Position numbers and translations under genes: made by a program. DNA of 64,000 bases, from positions 339,917,154 to 339,981,153 of the forward strand of contig NC_073693.1 of the NCBI RefSeq assembly GCF_029784155.1, written 5' to 3'. This document shows, one piece after another, positions 2,503 through 54,344 of this stretch; the first letter of the stretch is position 1, and each line of letters opens with the position of its first letter. The DNA comes from Uranotaenia lowii. Lineage: Eukaryota; Arthropoda; Insecta; Diptera; Culicidae. The notes under the pieces are model-generated. The model ran no database searches. It was given only the letters and a program-made list of their open reading frames with translations, and was not told where the DNA came from.

Positions 2503-3378
2503 ACACGGAAAAAAATTGAGTGGTTATCCCAAAGACGCTGTCATGATAATTTTACCATTTCAGCGCTATAGTATTTTCAACCATGAAAAGTTAAACATCG
2601 ATTTTGTAAAAGTGCGCATGAAACAATATTGAAATTACTATGTACCTGGTAATTTTCGATAACTCTCAATGTTTGTTGTCGAAAATACTATGGTCATGAT
2701 AATTTCATCATAATTTCTATTACAACTAGCGTCCGCATAGTAATTTAGACATTGTGGCACCAATTCATATCAACAAAATACTACGCGCATGGTACTTTTG
2801 AGGACAAAACATTATTGACTCAAAAACATAAGTGCGTATGATAATTTTACCATGCAAAACATTCTTGTTGTTTACACTAATTCAGGATCATTAATCATCA
2901 AACCCGTGAGTAAAAAAACTAATTTTCAGCTGCTTTAAAGTTTCATATCTTTGAAAATCTTTCCAGAGCATCGGGAGAACACACCGACACATTGACCGAC
3001 GTTTGTCGGAAGTGTGAATTTTAATGTTTCAAATAATGTCATAATACATGCATGCAAATAAACAAACAAACATACATAGTAATTTTACTATTTAAATCAA
3101 GCTCCTCGCTCCTCCTAATTTTTATCATAACACATGCTAGTTTCATCATGAAACATATTAATTTTACTAGAGACGAAGTAGAACAATGCATCATTTCATT
3201 GACAATTTTACTAAAACGCAGTCGAATTTACTATGCGCAGCCAAATTGAACACATAGTAAAATTGCTATGCATAAGGTATTATAAACAACAAAACATATT
3301 TGACTCAAAAATATGGTTGTCTGTTGTTCATTTAAACCACGGATTTAGTAATTCTACTATGCTTTTTTTTGTGTGTAT
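2503..3378. mobile_element. Probable non-autonomous element with recurring AT palindromes
   Basis: AT-rich block bounded by TACACGGAAAAAAA-like sequence at 2503-2518 and its approximate inverse TTTTTTTTGTGTGTA at about 3363-3377. Inside, variants of CATAGTAATTTTACTATG recur at least ten times, on both strands by symmetry (near 2541, 2637, 2686, 2733, 2837, 3077, 3148, 3217, 3253, 3346). TACACGGAAAAAAA-type termini are familiar to me from mosquito non-autonomous elements, but no clear target duplication is visible, so the class is open. Confidence 0.45.
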
Positions 3379-3514
3379 AATCTGAAGTGACGTTTATTAC
3401 ATCTTCTGATGTTTTTAAACTTGGTGCGGCTTATCGTTACGGACTATTGAAAGGTGTTCAGCAACTCGTGTTTTAGCTCGTTCGGTTTTTAGTAGTGCCA
3501 CAGAATTAGTTAAA

Positions 3515-4218
3515 ATGGAAATTCCACATAGTGAATTGTTTAATTTGCTATCCACTGGTAAAAAGCTCCCTGAATTAGTGCATTTTGTAGAAAGTAAAGT
3601 GAGTGATGGTAAAATTAATGTTCAGGACCGCTACGGATTTTCTCCGTTGCATGCATATATACGATGCATGGAATTATTTCTCAAAGTTTCCTACAGATAA
3701 GGATTGGATAATCCTTCTTGGCGTGTTGGTAAGATAAAAGTAACAAAAAATTATGATTGTTTTAATAATGATCTTTCTTGCAGTACGGCATGACCGAGAT
3801 TTAAAAGAAAGAGAATCTATTATCAAAACAAATCTTCGGAATGAATTGGGCCTAAGAATTAGTGAGCCGCGTCCGGAAGGAGGAAATAGTAACGACGGGA
3901 ACACGCCTCGTAAATTTTTCGAAAATTTCGAAATAGTTTCCCGGATAACTGGAATCAACCAAAATCTGTTACAAAGAATTCGCACTCTTTTATTAGTTTT
4001 AAACAGTAAGGTTGAAATCGATTTTGAAGCGTATCAAGCATACGCCGAAGATTTCAAAAGAATTCAGTAGGGTTGCAAACATCGAAGACGTATTTAAAAG
4101 GCTGCTGATTACTTCTGAACTGCTCAATTCATTGACCAATCGCGTCCCGAGAGTCAAAGAAATTCCGCCAATGCCCGAAACTGCGGAAAATTTGTTGAAG
4201 AAAGTTGAATTTTCTTAG
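3515..4218 (+). pseudogene. Broken transposase-like gene (insect TE-associated family)
   Basis: Three blocks of open frame follow each other. Block 1 (3515-3700, 61 codons) includes NVQDRYGFSPLHAY, which looks ankyrin-like. Block 2 (about 3784-4070) has NSNDGNTPRKFFENF and ITGINQNLLQRI. Block 3 (4079-4218) has VANIEDVFKRLLITSE and ends VEFS-stop. From memory, the NDGNT-(A/P)-R-(R/K)-FF and (N/E)DxFxRLL(V/I)TS motifs recur in a family of uncharacterised arthropod TE-associated proteins; I cannot name the superfamily. A 55-bp GT-AG intron is plausible at 3729-3783 (GTAAGA ... TTGCAG), but the joined frame still hits a stop, and a segment normally present between blocks 2 and 3 seems deleted. 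It is therefore called a pseudogene. Its 3' end is duplicated in inverse orientation at 481-611. Confidence 0.6.
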
Positions 4219-9012: not shown

Positions 9013-9377
9013 CAAAATTGTCAAAATTGTCAAAATTGTCAAAATTGCCAAATTGTCAAAATTGTCAAAATTGTCAAAATTGTCAAAATTGTCAAAATTG
9101 TCAAAATTGTCAAAATTGTCAAAATTGTCAAAATTGTCAAAATTGTCAAAATTGTCAAAATTGTCAAAATTGTCAAAATTGTCAAAATTGTCAAAATTGT
9201 CAAAATTGTCAAAATTGTCAAAATGGTCAAAATTGTCAAAATTGTCAAAATTGTCAAAATTGTCAAAATTGTCAAAATTGTCAAAATTGTCAAAATTGTC
9301 AAAATTGCCAAAATTGTCAAAATTGTCAAAATTGTCCAAATTGTCAAAATTGCCAAAATTGTCAAAATTGCCAAAAA
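9013..9377 (+). repeat. 9-bp tandem array 1, unit TTGTCAAAA
   Basis: About 40 nearly identical copies of a 9-bp unit (TTGTCAAAA on the + strand), with rare substitutions such as GGTCAAAA near 9224 and GCCAAAA towards the right end. The right edge passes through TTGCCAAAAATGACAAATTT into unique sequence. Five of six frames are open because the unit is 3 codons long. Confidence 0.97.
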
Positions 9378-10480
9378 TGACAAATTTAAATTTTGTAAGT
9401 TTTGTCCAAATCTTAATTCTTGAATTTTAGAATCAAGCTCCAGTCAGTTTTCCACACTTAATTATCAGCAAATTGGTTCTATTTGTGGTTACAAACTTCA
9501 GTCGATTGGATGTTTACATGAAATCCGACCGTTTTGTTGAACCGGGTGTTTGCTAACGAACAATTGGCCCCTTAGGTTGATCGAAAACAACGACGATCGA
9601 TGACCGGACGGCATTCCATTGAACCGTCAAACGTCGTCGTCGTCGTCGTCGCCTTCCAGATCCTGGTCCATCTGATGCTTGAAGCGTCGTTCGAGTCTCC
9701 GCAAAAAAGCAAAAATAGGACCATGCGCTAGGGGAGAAAAATGATGCCCAGAGCCAAGTAATTTTTCTCGGGGACCAACAGTTTTTCCCCCAGCTTTGGA
9801 GTTACACCACAAGTTTTGGTGAACGGCTGCCGATCCAAACTATTAATAGATCTATAAATTCTGGTAAGTTGTTTGTTTTCGTTGGACTTTTCCTTTTGCT
9901 TCGGGCTGGTGTCCAAAGGTTGGTCCCCTGGAGGAGATCCAACAAGTAAAAAATGAGAAGAAAACTCTAGCGAAGCGGAAAACTGTTTGGAGTTAACAAA
10001 TGAATTAATGGGTTATTTACCCCTTCCTCGGATTCGGGAGGACTGACTGCTTCACGCCCTCTGGGGTCCAGCCCGAGTCACATGTGTACCCGGCACAAGA
10101 ATGTCTCATAAAAAACTGAGCGTCTCAAATCGGAAATTAAACTGTGTGCACGCACGCACATGGCGATTGTTTTGTTTTTCACTTGTTCACGGGAATTGTG
10201 TTGTTTGGTGAGGAAAAACGAGAACCGCATGGTGACGGACTGCCATGCCATGCCGTCGTGTCGTCACATACCGATTCTTTGGACACGGTCACCTTTGGAG
10301 GGCTCTTCGTGACACGATTCGATTTTACAGAACAAAATCAGCTCGAAACGTGTATTTGAATTGAAATAAAAAAATATTTTCAAAAATCGGCAAAATGGTA
10401 CTACATACATGCAGTACTATGTATTAAATATTGACCATATTAATAATTTTAAAAATTAAAAAAAAAATAAATTAAATTTT
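9378..10480. other. Unannotated spacer between 9-bp arrays 1 and 2
   Basis: GC-balanced unique sequence with a short GTC microsatellite at about 9634-9650 and no ORF above about 70 codons with recognisable content. It separates two arrays whose units are inverted relative to each other. Confidence 0.5.
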
Positions 10481-12820
10481 TTTTTTGACAATTTTGACAA
10501 TTTTGACAATTTTGACAATTTTGACAATTTTGACAATTTTGACAATTTTGACAATTTTGACAATTTTGACAATTTTGACAATTTTGACCATTTTGACAAT
10601 TTTGACAATTTTGACAATTTTGACAATTTTGACAATTTTGACAATTTTGACAATTTTGACAATTTTGACAATTTTGACAATTTTGACAATTTTGACAATT
10701 TTGACAATTTTGACAATTTTGACAATTTTGACAATTTTGACAATTTTGACGATTTTGACAATTTTGACAATTTTGACAATTTTGACAATTTTGACAATTT
10801 TGACAATTTTGACAATTTTGACAATTTTGACAATTTTGACAATTTTGACAATTTTGACAATTTTGACAATTTTGACCATTTTGACAATTTTGACAATTTT
10901 GACAATTTTGACAATTTTGACAATTTTGACAATTTTGACAATTTTGACAATTTTGACAATTTTGACAATTTTGACAATTTTGACAATTTTGACAATTTTG
11001 ACAATTTTGACAATTTTGTCAATTTTGACAATTTTGACAATTTTGACAATTTTGACAATTTTGACAATTTTGAAAATTTTGACAATTTTGTCAATTTTGA
11101 CAATTTTGTCAATTTTGACAACTGTGACAATTTTGACAATTTTGACAATTTTGACAATTTTGACAATTTTGACAATTTTGACAATTTTGACAATTTTGAC
11201 AATTTTGACAATTTTGACAATTTTGACAATTTTGACAATTTTGACAATTTTGACAATTTTGACAATTTTGACAATTTTGACAATTTTGACAATTTTGACA
11301 ATTTTGACAATTTTTACAATTTTTACAATTTTTACAATTTTGACAATTTTGACAATTTTGACAATTTTGACAATTTTGACAATTTTGACAATTTTGACAA
11401 TTTTGACAATTATGACAATTTTGACAATTTTGACAATTTTGACAATTTTGACAATTTTGACAATTTTGACAATTTTGACAATTTTGACAATTTTGACAAT
11501 TTTGACAATTTTGACAATTTTGACAATTTTGACAATTTTGACAATTTTGACAATTTTGACAATTTTGACAATTTTGACAATTTTGACAATTTTGACAATT
11601 TTGACAATTTTGACAATTTTGACAATTTTGACAATTTTGACAATTTTGACAATTTTGACAATTTTGACAATTTTGACAATTTTGACAATTTTGACAATTT
11701 TGACAATTTTGACAATTTTGACAATTTTGACAATTTGGACAATTTTGACAATTTTGACAATTTTGACAATTTTGACAATTTTGACAATTTTGACAATTTT
11801 GACAATTTTGACAATTTTGACAATTTTGACAATTTTGACAATTTTGACAATTTTGACAATTTTGACAATTTTGACACTTTTGAAAATTTTGACAATTTTG
11901 TCAATTTTGACAATTTTGTCAATTTTGACAACTGTGACAATTTTGACAATTTTGACAATATTGTCACTTTTGACAATTTTGTCAATTTTGACAATTGTGA
12001 CAATTTTGACAATTTTGACAATTTTGACAATTTTGACAATTTTGACAATTTTGACAATTTTGACAATTTTGACAATTTTGACAATTTTGACAATTTTGAC
12101 AATTTTGACAATTTTGACAATTTTGACAATTTTGACAATTTTGACAATTTTGACAATTTTGACAATTTTGACAATTTTGACAATTTTGACAATTTTGACA
12201 ATTTTGACAATTTTGACAATTTTGACAATTTTGACAATTTTGACAATTTTGACAATTTTGACAATTTTGACAATTTTGACAATTTTGACAATTTTGACAA
12301 TTTTGACAATTTTGACAATTTTGACAATTTTGACAATTTTGACAATTTTGACAATTTTGACAATTTTGACAATTTTGACAATTTTGACAATTTTGACAAT
12401 TTTGACAATTTTGACAATTTTGACAATTTTGACTATTTTGACAATTTTGACAATTTTGACAATTTGGCAATTTTGACAATTTTGACAATTTTGACAATTT
12501 TGACAATTTTAACAATTTTGACAATTTTGACAATTTTGACAATTTTGACAATTTTGACAATTTTGACAATTTTGACAACAATTTTGACAATTTTGACAAT
12601 TTTGACAATTTTGACAATTTTGACAATTTTGACAATTTTGACAATTTTGACAATTTTGACAATTTTGACAATTTTGACAATTTTGAAAATTTTGACAATA
12701 TTGTCACTTTTGACAATTTTGTCAATTTTGACAATTGTGACAATTTTGACAATTTTGACATTTTTGACAATTTTGACAATTTTGACAATTTTGACAATTT
12801 GAACAATTTGGACAATTTGA
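10481..12820 (-). repeat. 9-bp tandem array 2, unit TTTTGACAA (inverse of array 1)
   Basis: About 260 copies of TTTTGACAA, the reverse complement of the array 1 unit. Variant units (TGAAAATTT, TTGTCAATT, CAACTGTGAC, AATATTGTC) are clustered and recur at about 800-bp spacing: TGAAAATTTT at 11071, 11881 and 12684. This shows higher-order repetition by large unequal exchange on top of 9-bp slippage. Short phase breaks occur near 12464 (missing bases) and 12578 (extra CAA). Confidence 0.97.
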
Positions 12821-33680: not shown

Positions 33681-36600
33681 AAAAATGACAAAAATGACAA
33701 AAATGACAAAAATGACAAAAATGACAAAAATGACAAAAATGACAAAAATGACAAAAATGACAAAAATGACAAAAATGACAAAATGACAAAAATGACAAAA
33801 ATGACAAAAATGACAAAAATGACAAAAATGACAAAAATGGCAAAAATGACAAAAATGACAAAAATGACAAAAATGACAAAAATGACAAAAATGACAAAAA
33901 TGACAAAAATGACAAAAATGACAAAAATGACAAAAATGACAAAAATGACAAAAATGACAAAAATGACAAAAATGACAAAAATGACAAAAATGACAAAAAT
34001 GACAAAAATGACAAAAATGACAAAAATGACAAAAATGACAAAAATGACAAAAATGACAAAAATGACAAAAATGACAAAAATGACAAAAATGACAAAAATG
34101 ACAAAAATGACAAAAATGACAAAAATGACAAAAATGACAAAAATGACAAAAATGACAAAAATGACAAAAATGACAAAAATGACAAAAATGACAAAAATGA
34201 CAAAAATGACAAAAATGACAAAAATGACAAAAATGACAAAAATGACAAAAATGACAAAAATGACAAAAATGACAAAAATGACAAAAGTGATAAAAAATGA
34301 CAAAAATGACAAAAATGACAAAAATAACAAAAATGACAAAAATGACAAAAATGACAAAAATGACAAAAATGACAAAAATGACAAAAATGACAAAAATGAC
34401 AAAAATGACAAAAATGACAAAAATGACAAAAATGACAAAAATGACAAAAATGACAAAAATGACAAAAATGACAAAAATGACAAAAATGACAAAAATGACA
34501 AAAATGACAAAAATGACAAAAATGACAAAAATGACAAAAATGACAAAAATGACAAAAATGTCAAAAATGACAAAAAGGACAAAAATGACAAAAATGACAA
34601 AAATGACAAAAATGACAAAAATGACAAAAATGACAAAAGTGATAAAAAGTGATAAAAAATGACAAAAATGACAAAAATGACAAAAATGACAAAAATGACA
34701 AAAATGACAAAAATGACAAAAATGACAAAAATGACAAAACGACAAAATGACAAAAATGACAAAAATGACAAAAATGACAAAAATGACAAAAATGACAAAA
34801 ATGACAAAAATGACAAAAAATGACAAAAATGACAAAAATGACAAAAATGACAAAAATGACAAAATGACAAAAATGACAAAATGACAAAAATGACAAAAAT
34901 GACAAAAATGACAAAAATGACAAAAATGACAAAAATGACAAAAATGACAAAAATGACAAAAATGACAAAAATGACAAAAATGACAAAAATGACAAAAATG
35001 ACAAAAATGACAAAAATGACAAAAATGACAAAAATGACAAAAATGACAAAAATGACAAAAATGACAAAAATGACAAAAATGACAAAAATGACAAAATGAC
35101 AAAAATGACAAAAATGACAAAAATGACAAAAAATGACAAAAATGACAAAAATGACAAAAATGACAAAAATGACAAAAATGACAAAAATGACAAAAATGAC
35201 AAAAATGACAAAAATGACAAAAATGACAAAATGACAAAAATGACAAAAATGACAAAAATGACAAAAATGACAAAAATGACAAAAATGACAAAAATGACAA
35301 AAATGACAAAAATGACAAAAATGACAAAAATGACAAAAATGACAAAAATGACAAAAATGACAAAAATGACAAAAATGACAAAAATGACAAAAATGACAAA
35401 AATGACAAAAATGACAAAAATGACAAAAATGACAAAAATGACAAAAATGACAAAAATGACAAAAATGACAAAAATGACAAAAATGACAAAAATGACAAAA
35501 ATGACAAAAATGACAAAAATGACAAAAATGAAAAAATGACAAAAATGACAAAAATGACAAAAATGACAAAAATGACAAAAATGACAAAAATGACAAAAAT
35601 GACAAAAATGACAAAAATGACAAAAATGACAAAAATGACAAAAATGACAAAAATGACAAAAATGACAAAAATGACAAAAATGACAAAAATGACAAAAATG
35701 ACAAAAATGACAAAAATGACAAAAATGACAAAAATGACAAAAATGACAAAAATGACAAAAATGACAAAAATGACAAAAATGACAAAAATGACAAAAATGA
35801 CAAAAATGACAAAAATGACAAAAATGACAAAAATGACAAAAATGACAAAAATGACAAAAATGACAAAATGACAAAATGACAAAAATGACAAAAATGACAA
35901 AAATGACAAAAATGACAAAAATGACAAAAATGACAAAAATGACAAAAATGACAAAAATGACAAAAATGACAAAAATGACAAAAATGACAAAAATGACAAA
36001 AATGACAAAATGACAAAAATGACAAAAATGACAAAAATGACAAAAATGACAAAAATGACAAAAATGACAAAAATGACAAAAATGACAAAAATGACAAAAA
36101 TGACAAAAATGACAAAAATGACAAAAATGACAAAAATGACAAAAATGACAAAAATGACAAAAATGACAAAAATGACAAAAATGACAAAAATGACAAAATG
36201 ACAAAAATGACAAAAATGACAAAAATGACAAAAATGACAAAAATGACAAAAATGACAAAAATGACAAAAATGACAAAAATGACAAAAATGACAAAAATGA
36301 CAAAAATGACAAAAATGACAAAAATGACAAAAATGACAAAAATGACAAAAATGACAAAAATGACAAAAATGACAAAAATGACAAAAATGACAAAAATGAC
36401 AAAAATGACAAAAATGACAAAAATGACAAAAATGACAAAAATGACAAAAATGACAAAAATGACAAAAATGACAAAAATGACAAAAATGACAAAAATGACA
36501 AAAATGACAAAAATGACAAAAATGACAAAAATGACAAAAATGACAAAAATGACAAAAATGACAAAAATGACAAAAATGACAAAAATGACAAAAATGACAA

Positions 36601-36967
36601 AAATGACAAAAATGACAAAAATGACAAAAATGACAAAAATGACAAAAATGACAAAAATGACAAAATGACAAAAATGACAAAAATGACAAAAATGACAAAA
36701 ATGACAAAAATGACAAAAATGACAAAAATGACAAAATGATAAAAATGATAAAAATGATAAAAATGACAAAAATGACAAAAATGACAAAAATGACAAAAAT
36801 GACAAAAATGACAAAAATGACAAAAATGACAAAATGACAAAATGACAAAAATGACAAAAATGACAAAAATGACAAAAATGACAAAAATGACAAAAATGAC
36901 AAAAATCACAAAAATGACAAAAATGACAAAAATGACAAAAATGACAAAAATGACAAAAATGACAAAA
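33681..36967 (+). repeat. 9-bp tandem array 3, unit ATGACAAAA
   Basis: About 365 copies of ATGACAAAA, a different unit from arrays 1, 2 and 5 but sharing TGACAA. Frequent single-base losses make 8-bp units (33780, 34861-34880, 35095, 35229, 35865-35880, 36003, 36195, 36661, 36732, 36831-36843). Variant blocks AGTGATAAAAAATGAC recur at about 34285 and 34636, and GATAAAAAT occurs three times at about 36738-36762. The array runs into the assembly gap, so its length is a minimum. Confidence 0.97.
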
Positions 36968-37467: not shown

Positions 37468-37654
37468 CAAATTTGTCAAATTGTCAAATTTGTCAAATTT
37501 GTCAAATTTGTCAAATTTGTCAAATTTGTCAAATTGTCAAATTTGTCAAATTTGTCAAATTTGTCAAATTTGTCAAATTTGTCAAATTTGTCAAATTTGT
37601 CAAATTTGTCGAATTTGTCACATTTGTCAAATTTGTCAAATTTGTCAAATTTGT
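37468..37654 (+). repeat. 9-bp sub-array, unit TTTGTCAAA
   Basis: About 20 copies of TTTGTCAAA immediately right of the gap, with a few 8-bp units and variants (GAATTTGTC, CACATTTGTC near 37608-37623). It differs by one A/T from the TTGTCAAAA unit that takes over at about 37655. Confidence 0.95.
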
Positions 37655-38892
37655 CTAAACTGTCAAAATTGTCAAAATTGTCAAAATTGTCAAAATTGTC
37701 AAAATTGTCAAAATTTTCAAAATTGTCAAAATTGTCAAAATTGTCAAAATTGTCAAAATTGTCAAAATTGTCAAAATTGTCAAAATTGTCAAAATTGTCA
37801 AAATTGTCAAAATTGTCAAAATTGTCAAAATTGTCAAAATTGTCAAAATTGTCAAAATTGTCAAAATTGTCAAAATTGTCAAAATTGTCAAAATTGTCAA
37901 AATTGTCAAAATTGTCAAAATTGTCAAAATTGTCAAAATTGTCAAAATTGTCAAAATTGTCAAAATTGTCAAAATTGTCAAAATTGTCAAAATTGTCAAA
38001 ATTGTCAAAATTGTCAAAATTGTCAAAATTGTCAAAATTGTCAAAATTGTCAAAATTGTCAAAATTGTCAAAATTGTCAAAATTGTCAAAATTGTCAAAA
38101 TTGTCAAAATTGTCAAAATTGTCAAAATTGTCAAAATTGTCAAAATTGTCAAAATTGTCAAAATTGTCAAAATTGTCAAAATTGTCAAAATTGTCAAAAT
38201 TGTCAAAATTGTCAAAATTGTCAAAATTGTCAAAATTGTCAAAATTGTCAAAATTGTCAAAATTGTCAAAGTTGTCAAAATTGTCAAAATTGTCAAAATT
38301 GTCAAAATTGTCAAAATTGTCAAAATTGTCAAAATTGTCAAAATTGTCAAAATTGTCAAAATGTCAAAATTGTCAAAATTGTCAAAATTGTCAAAATTGT
38401 CAAAATTGTCAAAATTGTCAAAATTGTCAAAATTGTCAAAATTGTCAAAATTGTCAAAATTGTCAAAATTGTCAAAATTGTCAAAATTGTCAAAATTGTC
38501 AAAATTGTCAAAATTGTCAAAATTGTCAAAATTGTCAAAATAGTCAAAATTGTCAAAATTGTCAAAATTGTCAAAATTGTCAAAATTGTCAAAATTGTCA
38601 AAATTGTCAAAATTGTCAAAATTGTCAAAATTGTCAAAATTGTCAAAATTGTCAAAATTGTCAAAATTGTCAAAATTGTCAAAATTGTCAAAATTGTCAA
38701 AATTGTCAAAATTGTCAAAATTGTCAAAATTGTCAAAATTGTCAAAATTGTCAAAATTGTCAAAATTGTCAAAATTGTCAAAATTGTCAAAATTGTCAAA
38801 ATTGTCAAAATTGTCAAAATTGTCAAAATTGTCAAAATTGTCAAAATTGTCAAAATTGTCAAAATTGTCAAAATTGTCAAAATTGTCAAAAT
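37655..38892 (+). repeat. 9-bp tandem array 4, unit TTGTCAAAA
   Basis: About 137 highly uniform copies in the same orientation and sequence as array 1 (9013-9377) and inverse to arrays 2 and 5. Only a handful of variants are visible (for example TTTTC near 37714, AGTTGTC near 38270, an 8-mer at 38361, ATAGTC near 38541). The right edge ends abruptly at TTCACC (38893). Confidence 0.97.
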
Positions 38893-39590
38893 TCACCTTT
38901 TTAACGAGACCTTTGGTTGGTGGATCATGTTGTATTTTGTCAAAATTGTGTCGAAATTTTCACAACTGTGTCAAAATTGTCAAATCGTGAAAAATTGTTT
39001 TCAAATTCTGTCGAATTTGTTTCCAATCAGGTTGAAATTGTGAAAATAATGTCGAAATGATGTCAATAGTGTGTCAAAATTATTCTGACTTTTTTTGTTC
39101 AAAATTGTTCCAAAACTATTTCGAAGATTTCAAAACTATGAAAAATTGTGTTGAATTGTTTCAAAATAATGTCGATTTTATGTCGAATTTCAGTTTTCTT
39201 ACGTATTTGTGTCCAAGGTGTGTATATATAAGAGGTATTACCGAATGTTAAATTCCCGATTTAGCCATTTTGACCATTTTGGTTTTGCAACTACAAAACT
39301 CATGGAGTTTGTTTACCAACAAGCCACAAAACAGCTGTGCAAATATTCTTATGTTTGTAAACAAACTCATTGAGCGCCCCGCTCACTCCTCGCCTACTTA
39401 CTGTAAAAGTCGGAAAGCCTTGTGTTTCTAAAAACCTTGATTGTGTCAATTTTGACACTTTGTCAAAATTGTATCAAATTTGAGTCTAATGTTGTTAAAC
39501 ATTGTGTAAAAATTGCGTGACTAATGTGTCAAATTGTATCGAAACTGTGTCAAAATTTTGTGAAAAATGTGACATCATGGTCAAAATTGA
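38893..39590 (+). repeat. Decayed shoulder of the 9-bp array, interrupted by a repeat
   Basis: GTGTCAAAATT, GTCGAAATT, TTGTGTC and GTCAAA-like variants continue at irregular 8-20 bp spacing to about 39207 and again from 39446 to 39590. The intervening 39208-39445 is a copy of the 20318-20545 dispersed repeat in inverse orientation, which appears inserted into older array sequence. Confidence 0.6.
39208..39445 (-). repeat. Dispersed repeat, copy 2 (inverse of 20318-20545)
   Basis: Reverse complement of copy 1 along its length, including TTGTTTACCAACAAGCC and ACTCCTCGCCTACTTACTGT. Its insertion splits the degenerate 9-bp shoulder. Confidence 0.75.
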
Positions 39591-41189
39591 AAAAAAAAAT
39601 ATTATAAAAACCAGGATAAGTGACCAACGACAGAATAACATTGATCTGGAACTTAGTCGATGTTGCAACAGCTCAACCAAAAGCCGGCCGTTTGTCCCAA
39701 TAGGACAGAAATAAGTGAGTGAGTGACTGATTAAGCCAGAACTGAGCTGATGGGTCTTATCTTTATGGGTTTATTATTGCATTAAAATACGATGATGATG
39801 ATCAGCCTGCCCGAGCTTGTTCCTTCGCATTTTGGTGTACTCACATGATGGGGGCACGTGTTGTGGCGATGCAGTTGGATATGGATGTATGAATACGCGG
39901 CGAGATGGTCCCTATGGATGGATATATTTAGTATGTAGGGAGGGCTTCTTCGTTCGTTCGCTCGCCCGGTCGGAATTTATATGCGGTCGTTTCTATCGGA
40001 GCGAATCCGGGCAAATTGAATTGAACTGCGGTGGCGGGGATTAATTAATTGACGCACTCGACGCAATAAAACGGAATCCAGTGACCGATCACTCCGGCTT
40101 TGGCTTTGACTTGGAGGGCCAAATTCCTCCTTCCAGAGAGCAGATTTCGGTATTATTTTAACGACCTTTTGACGAGGCTCAATTCGGTTTTAATTAAATA
40201 GGTCACCGAAGAGAAGTCGGTCTGGTAATTAAATTACTTTCTAAATATAATTTTTAATATTTTTTTCCGAAGTCATTCCTTGACAGTGATATATTCTTAG
40301 AATTCTTTGAGAAAAAAAACATTCGCGATCACAAACAAAAATACGCAACTGATGCTCCCGGTTTGAATCCAAAGCAAAAACCAACCACAATAAAGCCTCG
40401 GAAAATCTTCATTACGACCACCATTTAGCACTCTGGGTGGTCACCGCAAAACCGTTCCGGTCAAACTAGAACAGGTCCCGTCATCATAATCATCATCAGC
40501 AGTGTGGCAAGAAGTTCCAGAAATCCTGCCGAGAGCTCCCGGGGTCACCCGAAAACAGAAAAAAGCGACATCATGCCATTTGTGCCGGTCGCCATGTCGG
40601 TGAAAGGTGGGGGTAAAAACGGACAAAAGTAGAAAACCGAAATTATTCGAGCCCTACCGGATTGTTCGGCTAGATACCTATGTAGGTGCAGCACCTTAAG
40701 TCATTTTTTGGACCGTTTCAGTTACCTCAAAAAAAGGTTAAAGTCGCAGCTCGTAAAAAAGGAAGATGTATTGATATTTGAAATCATCACCCTGATCCCG
40801 ATGCTGCCGCCTTCAGGCCACCGCCGCCGTTGTGCTGGCGGGTTTCCTTTCTTTCCTCTAAATGATGTGGTCGGCAACAAACGAAAACAATCCGAAATGA
40901 AGCAATTCTGGTAGGTCACCCCCCGGGCAGGAAGATTGCCTTCATAACAACAAAACAGGGCGGACAAAAAAGAAAAGCGGGAATCTTTTGCTGTCTGGCT
41001 GGGGTGTTGCGTTGTTATCATCGAGTTAGATTAATTTCTATTAGCCATGCTGTCCCCTTTCTCCGATATTTTTTGAAAAGTTTCCTTTAAACGTATTTTA
41101 AACAAAGAAGACTTATACTGAGCTAAAAATTCAGGATTACACATTCACAGAAATGACACAATTTTTTAACAAACATCTATGATAAATTT
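39591..41189. other. Unannotated GC-balanced spacer between arrays 4 and 5
   Basis: Open frames up to 99 codons on both strands, no recognisable domain. Nothing specific is identified. Confidence 0.45.
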
Positions 41190-42326
41190 TCACAACTTTG
41201 ACAATTTTGACAATTTTGACAACTTTGACAATTTTGACAATTTTGACAATTTTGACAATTTTGACAATTTTGACAATTTTGACAATTTTGACAATTTTGA
41301 CAATTTTGACAATTTTGACAATTTTGACAATTTTGACAATTTTGACAATTTTGACAATTTTGACAATTTTGACAATTTTGACAATTTTGACAATTTTGAC
41401 AATTTTGACAATTTTGACAATTTTGACAATTTTGACAATTTTGACAATTTTGACAATTTTGACAATTTTGACAATTTTGACAATTTTGACAATTTTGACA
41501 ATTTTGACAATTTTGACAATTTTGACAATTTTGACAATTTTGACAATTTTGACAATTTTGACAATTTTGACAATTTTGACAATTTTGACAATTTTGACAA
41601 TTTTGACAATTTTGACAATTTTGACAATTTTGACAATTTTGACAATTTTGAGAATTTTTACAATTTTGACAATTTTGACAATTTTGACAATTTTGACAAT
41701 TTTGACAGTTTTGACAATTTTGACAATTTTGACAATTTTGACAATTTTGAGAATTTTTACAATTTTTACAATTTTGACAATTTTGACAATTTTGACAGTT
41801 TTGACAATTTTGACAATTTTAACAATTTTGACAATTTTGATAATTTTGACAACTTTGACAACTTTGACAATTTCGACAATTTTGACAATTTTGACAATTT
41901 TGACAATTTTGACAATTTTGACAATTTCGACAATTTTGACAATTTTGACAATTTTGACAATTTTGACAATTTTGACAATTTTGACAATTTTGACAATTTT
42001 GACAATTTTGACAATTTTGACAATTTTGACAATTTTGACAATTTTGACAATTTTGACAATTTTGACAATTTTGACAATTTTGACAATTTTGACAATTTTG
42101 ACAATTTTGACAATTTTGACAATTTTGACAATTTTGACAATTTTGACAATTTTGACAATTTTGACAATTTTGACAATTTTGACAATTTTGACAATTTTGA
42201 CAATTTTGACAATTTTGACAATTTTGACAATTTTGACAATTTTGACAATTTTGACAATTTTGACAATTTTGACAATTTTGACAATTTTGACAATTTTGAC
42301 AATTTTACCATTTTTATAATTTTGCC
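41190..42326 (-). repeat. 9-bp tandem array 5, unit TTTTGACAA
   Basis: About 125 copies in the orientation of array 2. A variant cassette GAGAATTTTTACAATTTT occurs at about 41650 and again 99 bp (11 units) later at about 41749, with GACAGTTTT following each; a local duplication. Both edges show diverged units (CAACTTTGAC on the left, ACCATTTTTATAATT on the right). Confidence 0.97.
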
Positions 42327-43184
42327 AAAACTGACTCACAGTGCTAAGAGAGAACTGAAGCCTACCTCCATTCTGCCTAAATGTGACCAAACGACAGTAC
42401 AGAGTTTCTGTATTGAATTTCCATCCCAATTTCTGTCTTTGACTTGAAATTTGAATTGAAACATTTTCGAACTGATTTAACAAAAATTATATCATCAACT
42501 AAAGTATATATCCTGAATTCAGCATATCATTTTCTAAATGATCATTCTCAAATTATCATAAAAACGATTTCATAGTTGAGATGCTGATATCATTGATATC
42601 TCTTAACATGAATATTTCTATGTTTTTAATCTTGTTTTTTCCAGATTCAATTCATTGAGATATACAAGTCTTGTGTTGTTTCTTCAGTTACTGAAGTTCA
42701 GTTTCGTGGTTTTTCTGAATTTTGAGAATTCAGGATCTTTGTTTAAGGTATTAAACTCATTTGAATTCTTTATCTGACTTTTTTCAATGATAACTGATCC
42801 TGTGTTTAACACATTTAATCTCTATTCTGATTTTTTTCAATCACTCATTTTTGCACTTATACCCCTTTGACTTTGAGGGCATCGAATGAAACTTTTGTTA
42901 CATTGAGAATAACAATTTGATAACAATTTTTTTTATCTGATGAAAAGCATATTCGAAAACATCTCATGAAAAGGTGTTTGTGATTCAAAGATTTGAAATT
43001 GAAAATCACATTTAGTGCAATTTCTGATTTGGCTCTGATTGTAACTTTGAATCTCTTTTTATTTAATTTAATCCATATTTTGTTTCTCAAAACTTTATTC
43101 GAAATTACGGTTGAGATTTGAGACACTGATTAGTGGTTCTGAATAAAACCTGATTTTAAGTTTTTAATTCTTAAACTCTTTTAT
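42327..43184. other. Unannotated AT-rich intergenic DNA
   Basis: No recognisable gene or repeat. Open frames do not exceed about 90 codons. Confidence 0.45.
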
Positions 43185-43346: not shown

Positions 43347-44096
43347 TCCATCTATACTTCACAATATGAACCTTCCCTCTTCCAAATCAAAGATTTTTTG
43401 GTTGATTTTATCTATTTCTTGGAGTTTTCCTTTCAAATTGGCTCAAAATTATGTATTTGACAGAAGTTTTGGAAAGTTGAGCACATTGTTCTCCTTTTGC
43501 AAAAAAAAACAATATCGCTGACTTATTATCACTCCACCAGAGTTTTCTTATAGTGACACGATTCCATATCCAATCCAGATAAAGATATCATCTTGGTGAG
43601 ACCTATACAAGTACTATGGAAGAAAAGCTATCGAGATAAGAAGCATTTTTCATATATATTTGGCTTTTTATTGTGACGCTCATTGTTTATCACTTACGAA
43701 TTTACAGCTTCACGTATTGCCAGTCTTAATAAAACTAGTTATCTTTCAACCTTTCCTCCTTTATCTTCTCCGGAACATCCAGGGAAGACTTGTCAACAAA
43801 AAATTTGTTTGCTGGTGGTCTGCCAGGTAAGCACCTGGTTAAGAAATCCATTCCGATTTTTTTTTCAAAACTTCATCCCACTTGCTGTTTAACTGTTTAG
43901 TGCACGGTTTGACCCCCTTTTTGTGTATTTAACCGATGGACAACTTATTAAAATAGTCTACATGAATTTTGGCCTGTTTTTGTTCTGTAGCACGGGTCAA
44001 AAAAAAAGAATTGACCTTTTTTACCACTTATACAATCGAAATGTTCTGATTTCAAATGATTATTTAAATCTTCAAAGGTGAAACCATATTCTTTAC

Positions 44097-45455
44097 TGTA
44101 AGTTTAAAACCTACCACCCCACCGGCGTTACAGGGACTCCCTTTATTAGGCCTCAGGGCGGCTCGCTTACAAAAGGAAATCGCAGGGAGTTCGAACTTTG
44201 ACCTCAGGAAAACCCCAAAAATGCACTTCTTGAACTTTTATTTGAAATTGCCTCAACAATTCTACGGCCCATGCGCAAACTAGTAAGGACCCAGATGGTT
44301 ACAGTACCTTTTAGGGCCACGCCCTGGTTCGGTTTTGAAGATGGCGGAGCTTCGACGAGGGCGACGCTGCTGCTGCTGACCAACTGCTTTGCCGGTCCAA
44401 TTCCTACCGGAACCCGGGATGTTCTTTCCGGGATTTTCGGCTACGTGGCGGAAGGAGCTGCTTGGAGACTTTGATTGGTCGCTCCGAGTGTTGTTGTTCG
44501 GAACCGACGACAATCTCCAATCAATGATCACCCGGAGGATAACGGCTATCCGGGCAATCGTGACCAAACCAAAGCCGATTCAGGACCAGGGTTCAGGGAC
44601 CAGGTTGACTTTCGTCCCGCCAAATGGTTGCTTTTGGCCAAAGACTTAGGGGTCCTGTGTAATAATCCGGCGTTAGTGTTCCGTCTTTCAGCGGGAACAA
44701 ACTCGCGGTTCAAGGACGGTCAAAGGCGACTACCTGGTGCTGGCTCACTTCCAAAAGTACCACAAAACTGCGAAGTACAAAGTGCACAACACAGCCAGCT
44801 TAGTGTTAAAAGCCAGACACCAGGTAAGCCATCTGACGCCTAACCGCCATTTTGTTCCCGCTGAAAGACGGAACACTAACGCCGGATTATTACACAGGAC
44901 CCCTAAGTCTTTGGCCAAAAGCAACCATTTGGCGGGACGAAAGTCAACCTGGTCCCTGAACCCTGGTCCTGAATCGGCTTTGGTTTGGTCACGATTGCCC
45001 GGATAGCCGTTATCCTCCGGGTGATCATTGATTGGAGATTGTCGTCGGTTCCGAACAACAACACTCGGAGCGACCAATCAAAGTCTCCAAGCAGCTCCTT
45101 CCGCCACGTAGCCGAAAATCCCGGAAAGAACATCCCGGGTTCCGGTAGGAATTGGACCGGCAAAGCAGTTGGTCAGCAGCAGCAGCGTCGCCCTCGTCGA
45201 AGCTCCGCCATCTTCAAAACCGAACCAGGGCGTGGCCCTAAAAGGTACTGTAACCATCTGGGTCCTTACTAGTTTGCGCATAGGCCGTAGAATTGTTGAG
45301 GCAATTTCAAATAAAAGTTCAAGAAGTGCATTTTTGGGGTTTTCCTGAGGTCAAAGTTCGAACTCCCTGCGATTTCCTTTTGTAAGCGAGCCGCCCTGAG
45401 GCCTAATAAAGGGAGTCCCTGTAACGCCGGTGGGGTGGTAGGTTTTAAACTTACA
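44097..45455. mobile_element. Palindromic LTR: 608-bp inverted arms around a 143-bp spacer
   Basis: Starts TGTAAGTTTAAAACC (44097) and ends GGTTTTAAACTTACA (45455). Arms 44097-44704 and 44848-45455 are almost identical reverse complements; I noted one difference, C/T near 44270. The right arm is the 3' part of an LTR on the + strand: polyadenylation signal AATAAA at about 45406, terminal CA at 45454-45455, then TATT and a tRNA-Lys-type primer-binding site. The spacer is ordinary LTR U3 sequence, because both of its halves recur in a second LTR copy (45497-46207 plus 48342-48400) where no palindrome exists. The left arm is therefore an inverted duplication of the right arm. Open frames of 67-122 codons are mirrored in both arms and are not genes. 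Confidence 0.8.
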
Positions 45456-45496
45456 TATTTGGCGCCCAACGTGGGGCCCACGTTGGGCGCCAAATA
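45456..45496. other. 41-bp palindrome of two opposed tRNA primer-binding sites
   Basis: TGGCGCCCAACGTGGGGC (45460-45477) is complementary to the 3' end of arthropod tRNA-Lys(CTT) including CCA (from memory). It is followed by its own inverse, ending CGTTGGGCGCCA (45481-45492). The whole 45456-45496 is a palindrome except for the single central base. Each PBS is separated by TATT from an LTR CA end, so two LTR-PBS units meet tail to tail with no internal region between them. Confidence 0.85.
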
Positions 45497-46207
45497 TGTA
45501 AGTTTAAAACCTACCACCCCACCGGCGTTACAGGGACTCCCTTTATTAGGCCTCAGGGCGGCTCGCTTACCAAAGGAAATCGCAGGGAGTTCGAACTCAA
45601 AGATCAGGAAATCCCCTCTTATGCACTTCTCTACCTTTATTAAACAATTGCCACATCAATTCTACCTTATTTGCGCAAACTAGAATGACCAGATGGTTAC
45701 GGTACCTTTAAGGGCCAAGCCCTGGTTGTCGCTGTTTGGAAGATGGCGGATCTACGGCGATGGTGATGCTACTGCTGACCAACTACTCTGTCGGTCCAAT
45801 TCCGGCCGGGAACCGGGATTTTCCTTCCGTGAATCTCCACGGCGAGGACGAATGAGCGGGTTGGAGAGCTGGTTGTTCGATCCGAAAGTTTCGTAGTACG
45901 GAATCGACAACAACCTTCGACGTGTGACCGTCCGGCAGATATCTGCTATCCGTGACGACCGGGACTAAATACCAAGGCCGATTCAGGACCAGGGTTCAGG
46001 GACCAGGTTGACTTTCGTCCCGCCAAATGGTTGCTTTTGGCCAAAGACTTAGGGGTCCTGTTGATGAATCAGGCGTTAGTGTTCCGGAAAGGAACAAAAT
46101 GGCGGTTCGGCGTCTCCTGGCTTACCTGGTGTCTGGCTTTTATCACTTAGATATGGGTTTTGTGTGCTGGATGTGTCGTGCACTTTGTACTTCACAGTTT
46201 CGTAGTA
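45497..46207 (-). mobile_element. LTR, - strand, 3' portion, related to 44848-45455
   Basis: Begins TGTAAGTTTAAAACC (45497), the inverse of the 44848-45455 terminus. The first ~100 bp are identical to the neighbour; beyond about 45597 the sequence is homologous but clearly diverged, with conserved TGCGCAAACTAG, GATGGTTACGGTACC, CAAATGGTTGCTTTTGGCC and GGCGTTAGTGTTCCG. The - strand carries AATAAA near the end. It is interrupted at 46207 by a DNA transposon and resumes at 48342. No gag-pol coding region is present. Confidence 0.75.
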
Positions 46208-48339
46208 GGGTAACGGACCTATTTTGGACCGCTTTGGGAAGTGGTCATGCTATTTTCTAAATCAATAAAGTATATGTTACAATTTTTTACTGCTTTATCC
46301 GTTCATTACGAAGGTCAAGGCTTTTTCATTCGAAACATATCGTCGTTTGTTGAAATATAACAAGATTTAAGCCTAAAATCTCGTTTTTTCGATAATTACA
46401 CTGGTCGATATTTTGGACCACCAGGTTTCTATTTTGGACCACCCTTTGGACCTATTTTGGACCACCCCTAAACTAAATCTGTTTTTTATCAATTTTGCTA
46501 AATTTACGACAGCGATCGATGCGCATTTATGCGAATAATCCAGGTCATCTTTTCTGCTGATATTCTTGTAGTCAAGTTTGGTTTGTTCACATAAACTCAT
46601 TCCTGAACTAACTTTCTTCAAATTTCCCCAGCCTCTATTTAGGTACACTTGTTTATTGAATATTTCTTACTACAACCTTTTTTTTCTTAAACTTCTTATG
46701 CTTTAAAACATCGAAAACGAAATTGAGTAAAAACAGAAAAACTCCTTTGTTATAAAGTGTGTTTCATATGTTGAAAATTCCGACAGCACGCTGCCAACTC
46801 GACAAATTTTGTTCTGTAGAGCTAAATACTGGCCAGTAGGCTTATCTTTAGGATCAATTTTTTGAACGCAATCTCCTTCAGGCAATCCGATGATAATTTT
46901 AGAAAGTATGACATCATCAACTCCGTGACATCAATTGATACATTTTGACTTCCAAAATCTTAGTGGATTTGGTTTGGCATCAGTTCTGTGGAATACATAG
47001 ATTTAAAAAAGATAAAGGTGTGCGAGAATTATTCGATCTTTTAAAACATCTAAAAGCCAGATTTTTTAAGCTGAAAAATTCACGAAAGTTTAGTTTTATC
47101 ATTGATACAACTTTTGTTTTACGATAGAAATGATCGTCGAAGATTTTTTAAAACTTTTTCTTCTTCATAAATTGCATAACCACAGGGGCTGAAAAATAAG
47201 ATTTTCAGTACTCATTCGCTTTCAATTTTTGAACATTTAAACATTTTAACAATTTTTTCCTAAGTTTTTAAACATATGAAAACTATCTCATAACTCTATT
47301 TGAATATATTTTTGATATTTTTTAAAATTGTTTTTCTGTTATTTGAGATATTTTAATTTAACATAAATTAAACTCGTTATATATTTGCGATTTGTTCTCG
47401 TTTTTTCCCAACCCTTCCCTTAGACAAGGTTTATATTTCGTTTTTTCTATCTAACCAAGTATTTTTTTCCAGAAAATTAATTCTGAATGGTTGTAACTTC
47501 TAGAAAAAACTGTCAACAATTTTTCATGAAGCATAAAAAATGACTCAATAAAAAATTGGTGCATGCCCACTTTTTTCATGTTTTTAAGCTTCTTTAAGCT
47601 GTAGCTTGTGACAACTGCTTCTCAAACAGTTGCCATTAATGTGGATTGTTAGATTATTGTGGTTTAAAGCACAAAAATACGTTCAAACAATGACTGGCTT
47701 GGTTTTATGCCGATTGAAGTAAACCCCGTCTAAATGCGGGTTTGGACTTTAGCGAGTTGTTTATAAAAGTAATTCCAAAATTCCAATTTTTTTAATAATA
47801 ATATTTCAAAGTGTACAAAATTCTTTCCATATCGTCCTATAACGTCTTTTTACGTTTATAAGCAATTAACAGCAAGTAAAATACCCAGGTTATGTTGAGT
47901 GGTCCAAAATAAGTCCCTAAGGAATTAAGTAGGACCTATTTTCGACATGGGTCAAATTACTATCAAAACATGATTTTTTGGTTCTTCGAGCTTGCAAACT
48001 AGTTTTCAAGTGTTTTTCATAGCTGTGAACATATTTGTAGTTGTTAAACTCATCACAGCTATACAAAAAACTTCTTGTGGTTTCACTCCAATAATGGCAC
48101 GTTCTCCTGAAATGGGCTTGGATCGGCCCAACTGTGAAAATTCAAAACTTTATTTTCAATTTTCTCTCCCTTACTTTCTTAATTGAATAGAATGTTAGAT
48201 ATGATTAGAATCATAAGAAGTAGCTTTAACTATATGTGTTCAAAATTTCAATGATTAAAATGATTTATGAGGGAAATATTGGGAAAAAGCTGAAAGGTGG
48301 TCCAAAATATGTACCCGGTCCAAAATAAGTCCGTTACCC
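46208..48339. mobile_element. Non-autonomous DNA transposon in an LTR, TA target duplication
   Basis: Terminal inverted repeats GGGTAACGGACCTATTTTGG (46208) and the inverse of GGGTAACGGACTTATTTTGG (ending 48339) differ at one base. Flanking TA is duplicated (46206-46207 and 48340-48341). Removing 46208-48341 restores a continuous LTR sequence that aligns with the related LTR at about 44755-44790, giving an internal empty site. TATTTTGGACC is repeated near both ends (46411, 46430, 46451; inverse at 47900, 48299). A - strand stretch at 46703-46885 (PEGDCVQKIDPKDKPTGQYL) could be a relic, but no transposase is recognised. TA duplication points to Tc1/mariner-type integration. Confidence 0.85.
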
Positions 48340-48341
48340 TA

Positions 48342-48650
48342 CTAATCGAAGTGAGCCAGCACCAGGAAGCCGCCTTTGTCCGGCCTTGAACCGCGAGTAT
48401 AGGTCGTTGCTCTCCCATTGTGGCGGACACGATCGTTCGCCTTCGTGAACTCGTCGGGCGTCGCTACCGATCGGGATGGTTACCAAGCAGCGCGGGTTAC
48501 CATAGATGGCCCTCTGGTTGTCAGGTGCTGGAGCTTCGTGGCTGCATACTGGTGGCTTGTGGCGCTGTCGTCGGCTTTGAAGACTACATTATTCGGGGAA
48601 AACCATCACCCATCATTTTCCCTCACTGCGATATTTAAAAACTACAATTA
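48342..48650 (-). mobile_element. LTR continuation (U3 part) beyond the inserted transposon
   Basis: GAAGTGAGCCAGCACCAGG and CTTGAACCGCGAGT (48350-48400) match the inverse of the palindromic LTR spacer at about 44706-44756. Beyond 48400 the sequence is GC-rich but no longer matches the palindrome arm, so it is probably the native U3 region that the other copy lost. The outer LTR boundary is not determined; composition falls back to AT-rich by about 48650. Confidence 0.6.
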
Positions 48651-48914
48651 ACCGCGACAAATCACTACAACCTCGATGGAAGTGTTATCTGACGCTTACA
48701 TTACTTTCATGGATTCAGTGATTCCTTAATTTATTCATATTTTAGCTCTCAATAATTCTCAATAATTCCTCAATAATTCCTTAAGACTCTAAGTACAATT
48801 TATAACATGAACTTTGGTCGAATAGTTGATTTCCAGCTGTGTTGGGATCTCTCGAAAGAGCTTTCCTAAGTTTTCAAGATCCTGCCCAAAAATTTTAGTC
48901 TATAAACATATTCA

Positions 48915-52319: not shown

Positions 52320-54340
52320 GCACATTACATTACAAAGCATTACATTTCATAACATTGCATTGCATTACATTACATTAAAATACATTGCATTACATTACAT
52401 TACAATACATTACCTTACATTACATTTCATTTCATTACATTTCATTACATTTCATTACATTTTATTACATTTCAATACATTTCATTACATTTCATTACAT
52501 TTCATTACATTTCATTACATTTCATTACATTTCATTACATTTCATTACATTTCATTACATTTCATTACATTTCATTACATTTCATTACATTTCATTACAT
52601 TTCATTACATTTCATTAAATTTCATTACATTTCATTACATTTCATTACATTTCATTACATTTCAAAACATTTCATTACATTTCATTACATTTCTTTACAA
52701 TTCATTACATTTCATTACATTACATTACATTTCATTATATTTCATTACTTTACATTTCTTTTCATTAAGTTTAATTACATTTCATTACATTCCAATACAT
52801 TACATTACATTACATTACATTACATTACATTACATTACATTACATTACATTACATTACATTACATTACATTACATTACATTACATTACATTACATTACAT
52901 TACATTACATTACATTACATTACATTACATTACATTACATTACATTACATTACATTACATTACATTACATTACATTACATTACATTACATTACATTACAT
53001 TACATTACATTACATTACATTACATTACATTACATTACATTACATTACATTACATTACATTACATTACATTGCATTGCATTTCATTACATTATATTACAT
53101 TTCAGTACACTTAATTACATTTCATTAGATTTCATTACATTTCATAAAATTTCATTACATTTCATTACATTCAATTAAATTCCACTACGATTCATTACAT
53201 TCCATCACATTATATTATATTACATTACATTACATTACATTACATTACATTACATTACATTACATTACATTACATTACATTACATTACATTACATTACAT
53301 TACATTACATTACATTACATTACATTACATTACATTACATTACATTACATTACATTACATTACATTACATTACATTAAATTACATTACATTACATTACAT
53401 TACATTACATTACATTACATTACATCACATTACATTTCATTACATTACATTACATTACATTACATTACATTACATTACATTACATTACATTACATTACAT
53501 TACATTACATTACATTGCATTGCATTTCATTACATTATATTACATTTCAGTACACTTAATTACATTTCATTAGATTTCATTACATTTCATAAAATTTCAT
53601 TACATTTCATTACATTTAATTAAATTCCACTACGATTCATTACATTCCATCACATTATATTACATTACATTACATTACATTACATTACATTACATTACAT
53701 TACATTACATTACATTACATTACATTACATTACATTTCATTACATTACATTACATTACATTACATTACATTACATTGCATTACATTACATTATATAACAT
53801 TTCATTACACTTCATTACACTTCATTACATTTCATCACATTTCATCACATTTCATTACACTTCATTACATTTCATCACATTTCATCACATTTCATCGCAT
53901 TTCATCACATTCCATTACATTACAAAACGTTACATTACATTACATTTCATTACACTTCATTACATTTCATCACAATTCATTACATTTTATCACATTTCAT
54001 TACATTACATTACATTTCATGACACTTCATTATATTTCATCACATTTCATCACATTGCATTACATTACAAAAAATTACATTACATTTCATTACACTTCAT
54101 TACATTTCATCACATTTCATCACACTTCATTACGATTCAATACATTTCATTATATTTCATTACATTTCATTACATTTCATTACATTTCATTACATTTCAT
54201 TACATTTCATTACATTTCATTACATTTCATTACATTTCATTACATTACATTTTACAGATTTCATTGCTTTACATTTCATAACGTTACATTACTTTGCATT
54301 ACATTGCATTTCTTTACATTACATTTCATTAAATTTCATT
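52320..54340. repeat. TTACA-type satellite with 5-bp, 10-bp and ~445-bp periods
   Basis: About 2 kb of TACAT/CATTA units. 52420-52740 is mostly a decamer TTTCATTACA; 52795-53070 and 53220-53510 are near-pure TACAT pentamers; 53770-54250 mixes CATCACATTT and CACTTCATTA variants. A ~145-bp variant-rich block (starting TGCATTGCATTTCATTACAT) occurs at about 53070 and again at about 53515 with almost identical internal variants (CAGTACACTTAATTAC, CATAAAATTTC, CCACTACGATTC), showing a ~445-bp segmental duplication. Long frames (272 and 168 codons) are repeat artefacts. Confidence 0.97.
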
Positions 54341-54344
54341 ACAA

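Follow-up and report, generated by a model that had tools for sequence, protein, structure and literature searches.

A tail-to-tail LTR palindrome in Uranotaenia lowii, probably an integrated aberrant reverse-transcription product of a Ty3/Gypsy retrotransposon

How could two long terminal repeats (LTRs) come to stand tail to tail at a tRNA primer-binding site (PBS), with no internal region between them? This question is raised by a locus in the window, which is the whole stretch of 64,000 nucleotides of Uranotaenia lowii DNA that was analysed. A sequence-only reading had described two opposed PBS copies of the tRNA-Lys type, each preceded by TATT and the CA end of an LTR, with nothing between them, and the letters at 45456-45496 bear this out: they form an odd palindrome of 41 bases centred on 45476, TATT-TGGCGCCCAACGTGGG-G-CCCACGTTGGGCGCCA-AATA. 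On the left, the palindrome is bordered by the LTR terminus CTTACA (45450-45455), and on the right by the inverse, TGTAAG, from 45497 onward. An inverted repeat beyond chance expectation has arms of 207 nt with 87% identity and 1 nt between them, and the self-match across the palindrome reaches approximately 80% over 1489 columns, with approximately 725 nt in each arm. The palindrome is confirmed as real.

The 41 bp of the palindrome are only a small part of the inserted unit, which also comprises a fold-back copy of one LTR (A) on the left and an interrupted second LTR (B) on the right. The whole insertion spans 44097-48700, with the palindrome at its core, and is flanked on both sides by a 4-bp target site duplication (TSD), TTAC, the left copy of which lies at 44093-44096 and the matching right copy at 48701-48704. 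The right end of the unit was chosen among CTTACA motifs and then confirmed by BLAST. The fold-back arm, A', occupies 44097-44701 on the minus strand; it is the antisense 3' part of LTR A, running from LTR position 1064 down to about 460, begins exactly at the U5 terminus (TGTAAG), and shows one mismatch in 605 nt against the reverse complement of A. LTR A itself lies in the sense orientation at 44701-45455 (plus strand, LTR positions 303-1064), ends in CTTACA, and is identical to the LTR of locus L008 in 714 of 770 columns. It is followed on the plus strand by the TATT spacer between LTR and PBS (45456-45459), which is identical in all 10 of the ordinary 5' LTRs that were read, and by a 17-nt tail derived from tRNA-Lys(CTT) (45460-45476), whose match to the tRNA extends beyond the ordinary PBS. 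On the minus strand, there follow the inverted tail of LTR B, 16 nt derived from tRNA-Lys (45477-45492), AATA, which is the TATT spacer of LTR B in inverted form (45493-45496), and the inverted LTR B in two parts, 45497-46207 (LTR positions 1070 down to 360) and 48340-48700 (positions 361 down to 1), the latter reaching the U3 terminus, CTTACA. LTR B as a whole is identical to the LTR of L014 in 1061 of 1072 columns and to that of L013 in 1063 of 1072, and its second part alone is 99.2% identical to the L014 LTR. A and B belong to different LTR subfamilies and are therefore not simple duplicates of one another.

The interruption of LTR B is a nested DNA transposon of 2.1 kb (46208-48339), bounded by the terminal inverted repeats GGGTAACGGAC... 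and ...GTCCGTTACCC. It lies in a TA of LTR B, which was duplicated, and it arrived later than the original insertion, after the palindrome had formed. Its inverted ends measure 29 nt at 97% identity, with the duplicated target letters counted, and its interior contains repeats of the motif GGACCTATTTTGGACC.

Palindromes are prone to misassembly, and an assembly inversion or chimera could mimic a junction of this kind. The arms, however, differ by about 19%, the transposon nested in LTR B has a TA duplication of its own, TTAC flanks the entire unit, and other loci contain comparable structures bounded by their own TSDs. We consider an assembly error extremely unlikely.

The sequence-only reading had asked for a parent element with gag-pol, and such an element was found. 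The open reading frames of L028 encode Retrotrans_gag (24.1 bits, at its cut-off) followed, in order, by RVT_1, RT_RNaseH, Integrase_H2C2 and rve, which is the Ty3/Gypsy order. Full elements in the same genome possess LTRs of 1064-1070 nt that run from TG to CA, and a 4-bp TSD was present in four of the five LTR pairs fetched (CGTG, GTAA, AACA and AATC), the fifth pair (L009/L010) not having been assessed. Judged by domain order and by its LTRs and TSDs, the parent is a Ty3/Gypsy LTR retrotransposon. The Osvaldo lineage of mosquitoes is described, in the available part of PMC3286476, as having an LTR of approximately 1-2 kb, a tRNA-Lys PBS and mostly 4-bp TSDs, and the parent fits this lineage as far as LTR length, tRNA-Lys primer and 4-bp TSD go.

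The ordinary copies of this element supply the standard against which the tails can be read. All 10 of the ordinary family I 5' LTRs that were read carry TGGCGCCCAACTTTCC; their PBS is TGGCGCCCAAC followed by TTTCC, and the match to tRNA-Lys extends for only 11 nt. In family III, the match between leader and tRNA is 13 nt long (GT, then TCT). In the window, the two tails total 33 nt, which can be split as 17+16 or as 18+15, the exact tail end being ambiguous owing to the palindrome. From letter 12 onward, the tail of LTR A reads GTGGGG, which is absent from the genomic PBS of the family. These are letters of the tRNA that ordinary copies do not possess, and they are therefore best explained as having been copied from the primer.

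Nested and opposed LTR insertions are common, and the structure might alternatively have begun as two opposed ordinary elements, both internal regions of which were later removed by a chromosomal deletion that joined PBS to PBS. Partial self-complementarity of the PBS could make a breakpoint at this place more likely. The tail letters nevertheless contradict this scenario: in all 10 ordinary copies that were read, the PBS finishes with CAAC-TTTCC, from which a deletion would not easily create GTGGGG. In addition, a single pair of TSDs surrounds the whole composite, and 25 loci have a GTGGG tail, after which the sequence is in most cases different. The deletion of two opposed elements is, in our estimate, highly improbable.

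The recurrence was established by searching the genome for the exact pattern TATTTGGCGCCCAACGTGGG, with the reversed pattern as a control. There were 26 matches at 25 loci, the window being counted twice, and none for the reversed control; the pattern requires a tail of at least 16 nt, and short tails are therefore undercounted. Identity between L037 and L038 is 98.5% over 3 kb, and the two share a common continuation after the tail, so that they probably represent one duplicated insertion, and their near-identity leaves 24 independent GTGGG loci. Two tailed loci fall outside the pattern, namely L015, which has the spacer TAGT, and L018, which has a 15-nt tail, bringing the tailed loci to 27. 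A wider census with exact YATATTTGGCGCCCAAC followed by any 13 bases returned 98 sites (29 + 69), which were sorted by hand into 64 ordinary leaders (18 of family I, 37 of family II and 9 of family III), 26 GTGGG tails and 8 other sites, the last including two more copies that read through the tRNA, L076 and L077. At most of the ordinary sites, the 13th base is T. Both census patterns are exact, and diverged sites are consequently missed. The tRNA letters are not inherited by normal progeny: 64 of the 98 sites retain the leader of their family after 11 nt (13 nt in family III).

The census also bears on the possibility that the tailed loci are truncated or rearranged copies of a sister lineage whose tRNA-Lys PBS really has 18 nt, TGGCGCCCAACGTGGGGC. 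A PBS of 18 nt is normal in retroviruses, according to the available part of PMC13191261, and the 13-nt match of the family III leaders points in the same direction. If such a lineage existed, a common leader would be expected after GTGGGGC, yet no group sharing one was found among the 98 exact-match sites, a sample in which a diverged lineage could be missed; moreover, the full tRNA copies with CCA described below require a tRNA template. We regard a sister lineage as very unlikely.

Plus-strand synthesis on a primer tRNA normally stops at the m1A58 site (PMC13191261, in the part available), and the tail lengths can be compared with this. Among the 24 independent loci, exact lengths are 16 nt at five, 17 nt at six, 18 nt at six and 19 nt at two, with single tails of 50 and 68 nt, two of 76 nt, and the joint tail of the window. 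Thus, 19 of the 24 tails are 16-19 nt long and end close to tRNA position 58, and four read through for 50-76 nt; apart from the window, no tail ends between 20 and 48 nt. Shorter matches to the tRNA, of 13-15 letters, are also present, at L018 and, in the wider census, at L078-L082. Plus-strand strong-stop DNA, which mostly halts before m1A58 and more rarely continues past it, would be expected to give such a distribution. Read-through ends after 50 nt in L041 and after 49 nt in L077, close to tRNA positions 27-28, where the tRNA may have a second stop.

At L042 and L051, the tail is a complete tRNA-Lys(CTT) of 76 nt that includes CCA and continues up to the 5' end of the tRNA, and both copies are detected by ARAGORN and Rfam. 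Animal tRNA genes are not known to encode CCA. Targeting of tRNA genes occurs in yeast Ty3 and in Dictyostelium elements, and a complete tRNA-Lys adjoining the LTR, as at these two loci, is what would be seen if LTRs had been inserted beside tRNA-Lys genes. The copies, however, include the CCA end, and their first letter falls precisely where the PBS begins behind the spacer; at 20 of the 24 independent loci, the tRNA is represented by no more than a short 3' segment; and at L044 and L051 the TSDs lie outside the tRNA copy. Insertion beside tRNA genes seems to us next to impossible.

The read-through copies also preserve differences among themselves. No difference separates L042 from L051 over 76 nt, and of the 68 positions that L044 has in common with them, 67 carry the same letter, the exception being position 58. 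The letter at this position is C in L042 and L051, A in L044 and L077, and T in L041 and L076, so that four of the six read-through copies differ from the expected T (= A58). Relative to the reference, there is one other change in L077, one in L041 and at least five in L076. The reference consisted of the letters of L042 with position 58 set to T, and L042 is therefore no independent witness for the remaining positions of the tRNA. That the tRNA-Lys genes of this genome carry A58 is our assumption, made from what is expected of a tRNA, from the available part of PMC13191261 and from the copies L041 and L076, which show it. Under this assumption, the natural explanation for the changes at position 58 would be misreading of a methylated base, which we offer as a lead. 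If these changes hold against the tRNA genes, base modifications of a primer tRNA could be read from fossil insertions.

The sequence that follows the tail varies from locus to locus. An inverted LTR follows at 8 of the 25 loci (the window, L033, L035, L043, L046, L049, L051 and L056), and at L051 it begins after the whole tRNA copy. At L031 (= L016), the tail is followed by the internal region, which matches L028 directly. The tails of L042, L045 and L052 appear to run into the internal region as well, on the evidence of matches to stretches that lie between or before LTRs elsewhere, and that of L050 perhaps does so. A sense LTR or U5 end follows at L053 and L044, and no match could be assigned after the tail at 10 of the 25 loci (L032, L034, L036, L037, L038, L039, L040, L041, L047 and L048). 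The continuations of the 25 loci thus differ, except in the L037/L038 pair and for shared first letters in two groups: L035, L043 and L046 have in common only the inverted spacer and LTR and diverge further on, and L042 and L051 share only the rest of the tRNA. L043 has the same layout as the window, with an antisense A' from the U5 end, a sense A, a tail and an antisense B to the U3 end, built from other LTRs.

Several of these loci showed further peculiarities. At L053 (C3:276086837; 929-3563 of a 4.5-kb stretch), an LTR with a 17-nt tail jumps into an LTR at 1518, and the second, partial LTR then has an ordinary 11-nt PBS and leader, as though the 5' end had been duplicated via mispriming. 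At L018 (C2:154595978), the 15-nt tail is followed by what looks by eye like an old, degraded LINE-type element in antisense, possibly a jump to a foreign template. The tailed LTRs of L050 (C3:172297271) and L035 (C1:166931582) are preceded by upstream sequence common to both. An ordinary PBS lies approximately 6 kb upstream of the tailed LTR of L050, and the tail therefore seems to have been placed on a 3' LTR; the shared upstream sequence suggests the same for L035.

To what extent do these structures bear the marks of integration? An exact 4-bp TSD was present at all nine of the tailed loci at which both outer ends were located: TTAC in the window, GTGC at L015, GTTC at L016 (= L031), AAGT at L033, AGTT at L043, CCTC at L044, GATG at L046, AGGT at L049 and GTGT at L051. 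At L043, there were two terminus-like motifs downstream, the first of which bore AGTT, and at L051 the pattern used for the left end included the expected duplication, the start of the antisense LTR being placed there independently by BLAST. At the remaining 18 of the 27 tailed loci, at least one outer end was not located. The LTR starts at TGTAAG or TGTAAC adjoining the TSD at L015, L016, L033, L044, L046 and L049; in the window, it is B that has this U3 start, and A begins inside the LTR at position 303. At L015 and L049, U3 termini stand at both ends, with TSDs. L039 (= L017) has an intact U3 start with the flank CATT, and the flanks that were read revealed no LTR-like terminus with CATT behind it, so that some tailed LTRs may not be products of integrase. 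No second family I LTR was found downstream of L017 or L018. The LTR termini of the composite together with its 4-bp TSD resemble the product of an integrase, which we infer to have been the enzyme.

Taken together, the locus is very probably one integrated aberrant Ty3/Gypsy cDNA, built from over-copied strong-stop DNAs in five steps. First, plus-strand strong-stop DNA (U3-R-U5) would have been copied past the 11-nt PBS into tRNA-Lys to approximately position 59, as the letters of the tail indicate. Second, the 3' end would then have mismatched its own leader, and the normal second-strand transfer would have been impaired. Third, A and B, two different strong-stop DNAs, would have met by their tails, and mutual extension or joining would have given the tRNA palindrome of 33 nt that is seen at the junction; the route, including reverse transcriptase rather than a ligase as its maker, is the conjectural part of this step. 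The letters of the junction are given equally by a blunt join of 17+16 nt and by two 18-nt tails overlapping by GGC. Fourth, the growing strand may have proceeded antisense through A to LTR position 303, snapped back there at a homology of 8/10 and recopied A to the U5 end; the fold itself is visible in the sequence, and the order of the jumps is our reconstruction. Fifth, the molecule, which ended in U5 at one side and in U3 at the other, both termini being observed, would have been inserted by integrase with a duplication of 4 bp. The other tailed loci may have followed the same route with self-priming, with mispriming in the internal region or with jumps to another LTR, and a self-primed hairpin would presumably have been converted to a duplex with two ends. 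Points against this account are the tails that seem to sit on a 3' LTR at L050 and L035, the T at position 58 in L041 and L076, the jump of L016 without homology, the length dependence of the homology at the window fold, the 10 loci without an assigned match after the tail and the 18 loci at which an outer end was not located. The sequence-only reading had proposed joined plus-strand strong-stop ends, or an aberrant reverse-transcription product, and the GTGGGG beyond the 11-nt PBS, the 25 tailed loci and the termini with their TSD all speak for this proposal.

The joints themselves offer some indication of how they were made. At L015, the tail end CAACGTGGG aligns with CAACGTGTG of its own antisense LTR at 8/9, the best of 1052 positions, and the antisense copy then runs to the U3 terminus. 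The fold in the window, AACCGCGAGT/AACCGCCATT, has a homology of 8/10, the best of 745 positions, which depends on the length chosen: with other lengths or one other placing, 2-13 of approximately 745 positions are equal or better. L035, L043 and L046 have the junction GTGGGGC-GCCAAATA in common, which may be the outcome of a 3' GGGC pairing with GCCC in its own tail or in that of a partner; at L043, the sense and antisense LTRs are approximately 82% alike, so that the priming partner was probably another molecule. For the jump at L016, no homology was found (2/8).

These joints bear on a variant in which the strong-stop origin is right and the host, before integration, made the tail-to-tail joint by joining two cDNA ends. 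A blunt join of 17+16 nt would indeed yield the observed junction, and the L016 jump without homology is what such joining would give. On the other hand, L015 and the window fold have imperfect homologies that look primed, and the solution shared by L035, L043 and L046, GGGC with GCCC, fits priming by the 3' end of the tail. Host end-joining thus seems to us possible but rather unlikely, and priming by the tail remains our preferred account of the joint.

A mobile palindrome consisting only of LTRs had also been suggested for this locus, and the presence of its central junction at multiple loci would have supported a propagating structure. A 141-nt query was matched on both arms at the window locus only, among the 40 of 170 candidates that were scored, and a propagating palindrome or non-autonomous LTR family, which would be recognised by a shared junction, was rejected, as the window junction occurs once in the genome. 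The part of the suggestion that stands is that such palindromes do integrate, as L015 and L049 illustrate; propagation does not. A junction seen once, together with continuations that mostly differ, fits repeated accidents rather than the propagation of one structure.

Comparable intermediates are known from other systems. In HIV-1 and other retroviruses, plus-strand strong-stop synthesis halts strongly before position 58, with minor products extending further into or through the tRNA (PMC13191261, available part). The likeness to our loci is close, in that an LTR runs into the complement of the last 18 nt of the tRNA, with a stop before position 58 and minor read-through; the difference, as far as that text describes the retroviral case, is that there the molecule is an intermediate and its tail has its match in an 18-nt PBS, whereas here an 11-nt PBS was over-reached and the product was integrated and rearranged. 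In yeast Ty3 and Ty1, the first strong-stop DNA copies 12 nt of the tRNA and is a dead end that accumulates in particles (PMC5371799, available part). These elements resemble ours in forming a strong-stop product with letters copied from a tRNA whose sequence is not inherited; they differ in that 12 nt are copied and integration is not mentioned in the part of that paper available, whereas here 13-19 nt or the whole tRNA are found in the genome, with TSDs in nine cases. An element of Culex, cqgypsy_1, has two head-to-head tRNAs at its PBS (PMC3286476, available part). It is of the same element type, with tRNA-Lys copied together with CCA just after the 5' LTR; unlike the present set, it is a single element, for which its authors, in the same part of the text, proposed a Twin-like transpositional insertion. 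We infer that an error of strand transfer, with read-through of the tRNA and then a jump back to the LTR end, would explain cqgypsy_1 as well. Small LTR elements of the Helenus/Ajax type likewise contain small-RNA sequence (tRNA or 5S), according to the available part of PMC10886601, which places it inside the LTR and as inherited by a propagating family; in our loci, its place is behind the LTR, and they look like independent cases. Our literature search, which left subscription papers largely outside and is no proof of absence, found no description of integrated, tRNA-tailed strong-stop palindromes. Relative to the sequence-only reading, what is new is the tRNA origin of the tails, the outer ends of the insertion and the recurrence.

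More generally, we see about an even chance that these loci document, as fossils in the genome, plus-strand transfers that failed. On this view, over-copying of the tRNA is so frequent that approximately a quarter of the recognisable LTR-PBS sites (26/98) are tailed, nearly every cDNA that has two LTR termini is acceptable to the integrase, even a pure LTR palindrome with U3 at both ends, and read-through copies keep m1A58 as a base change. If this is true, the genome is a readable archive of tRNA modification and of reverse-transcriptase behaviour. The idea of a dead end rests on work with yeast Ty1 and Ty3 (PMC5371799, available part), and here the host genome would hold the apparent dead ends themselves. 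Tail lengths, priming sites and TSDs would make over-copying, failure of transfer and the choice of ends by integrase countable in one genome. LTR palindromes, pairs of inverted LTRs and tRNA insertions at PBSs, structures that might be taken for assembly errors or chromosomal rearrangements, would also have a general way of arising.

Elsewhere in the window, there are five tandem arrays (9013-9384, 10483-12818, 33681-36967, 37468-38893 and 41185-42328), amounting to approximately 8.6 kb in total. They are composed of 9-bp units, CAAAATTGT, TTTTGACAA, AAAAATGAC and AATTTTGAC, which are apparently related, and they coincide with a strong AT skew at 34-38 kb. At 52322-54343, a tandem array of 10-bp units (ACATTTCATT) shows a very strong GC skew.
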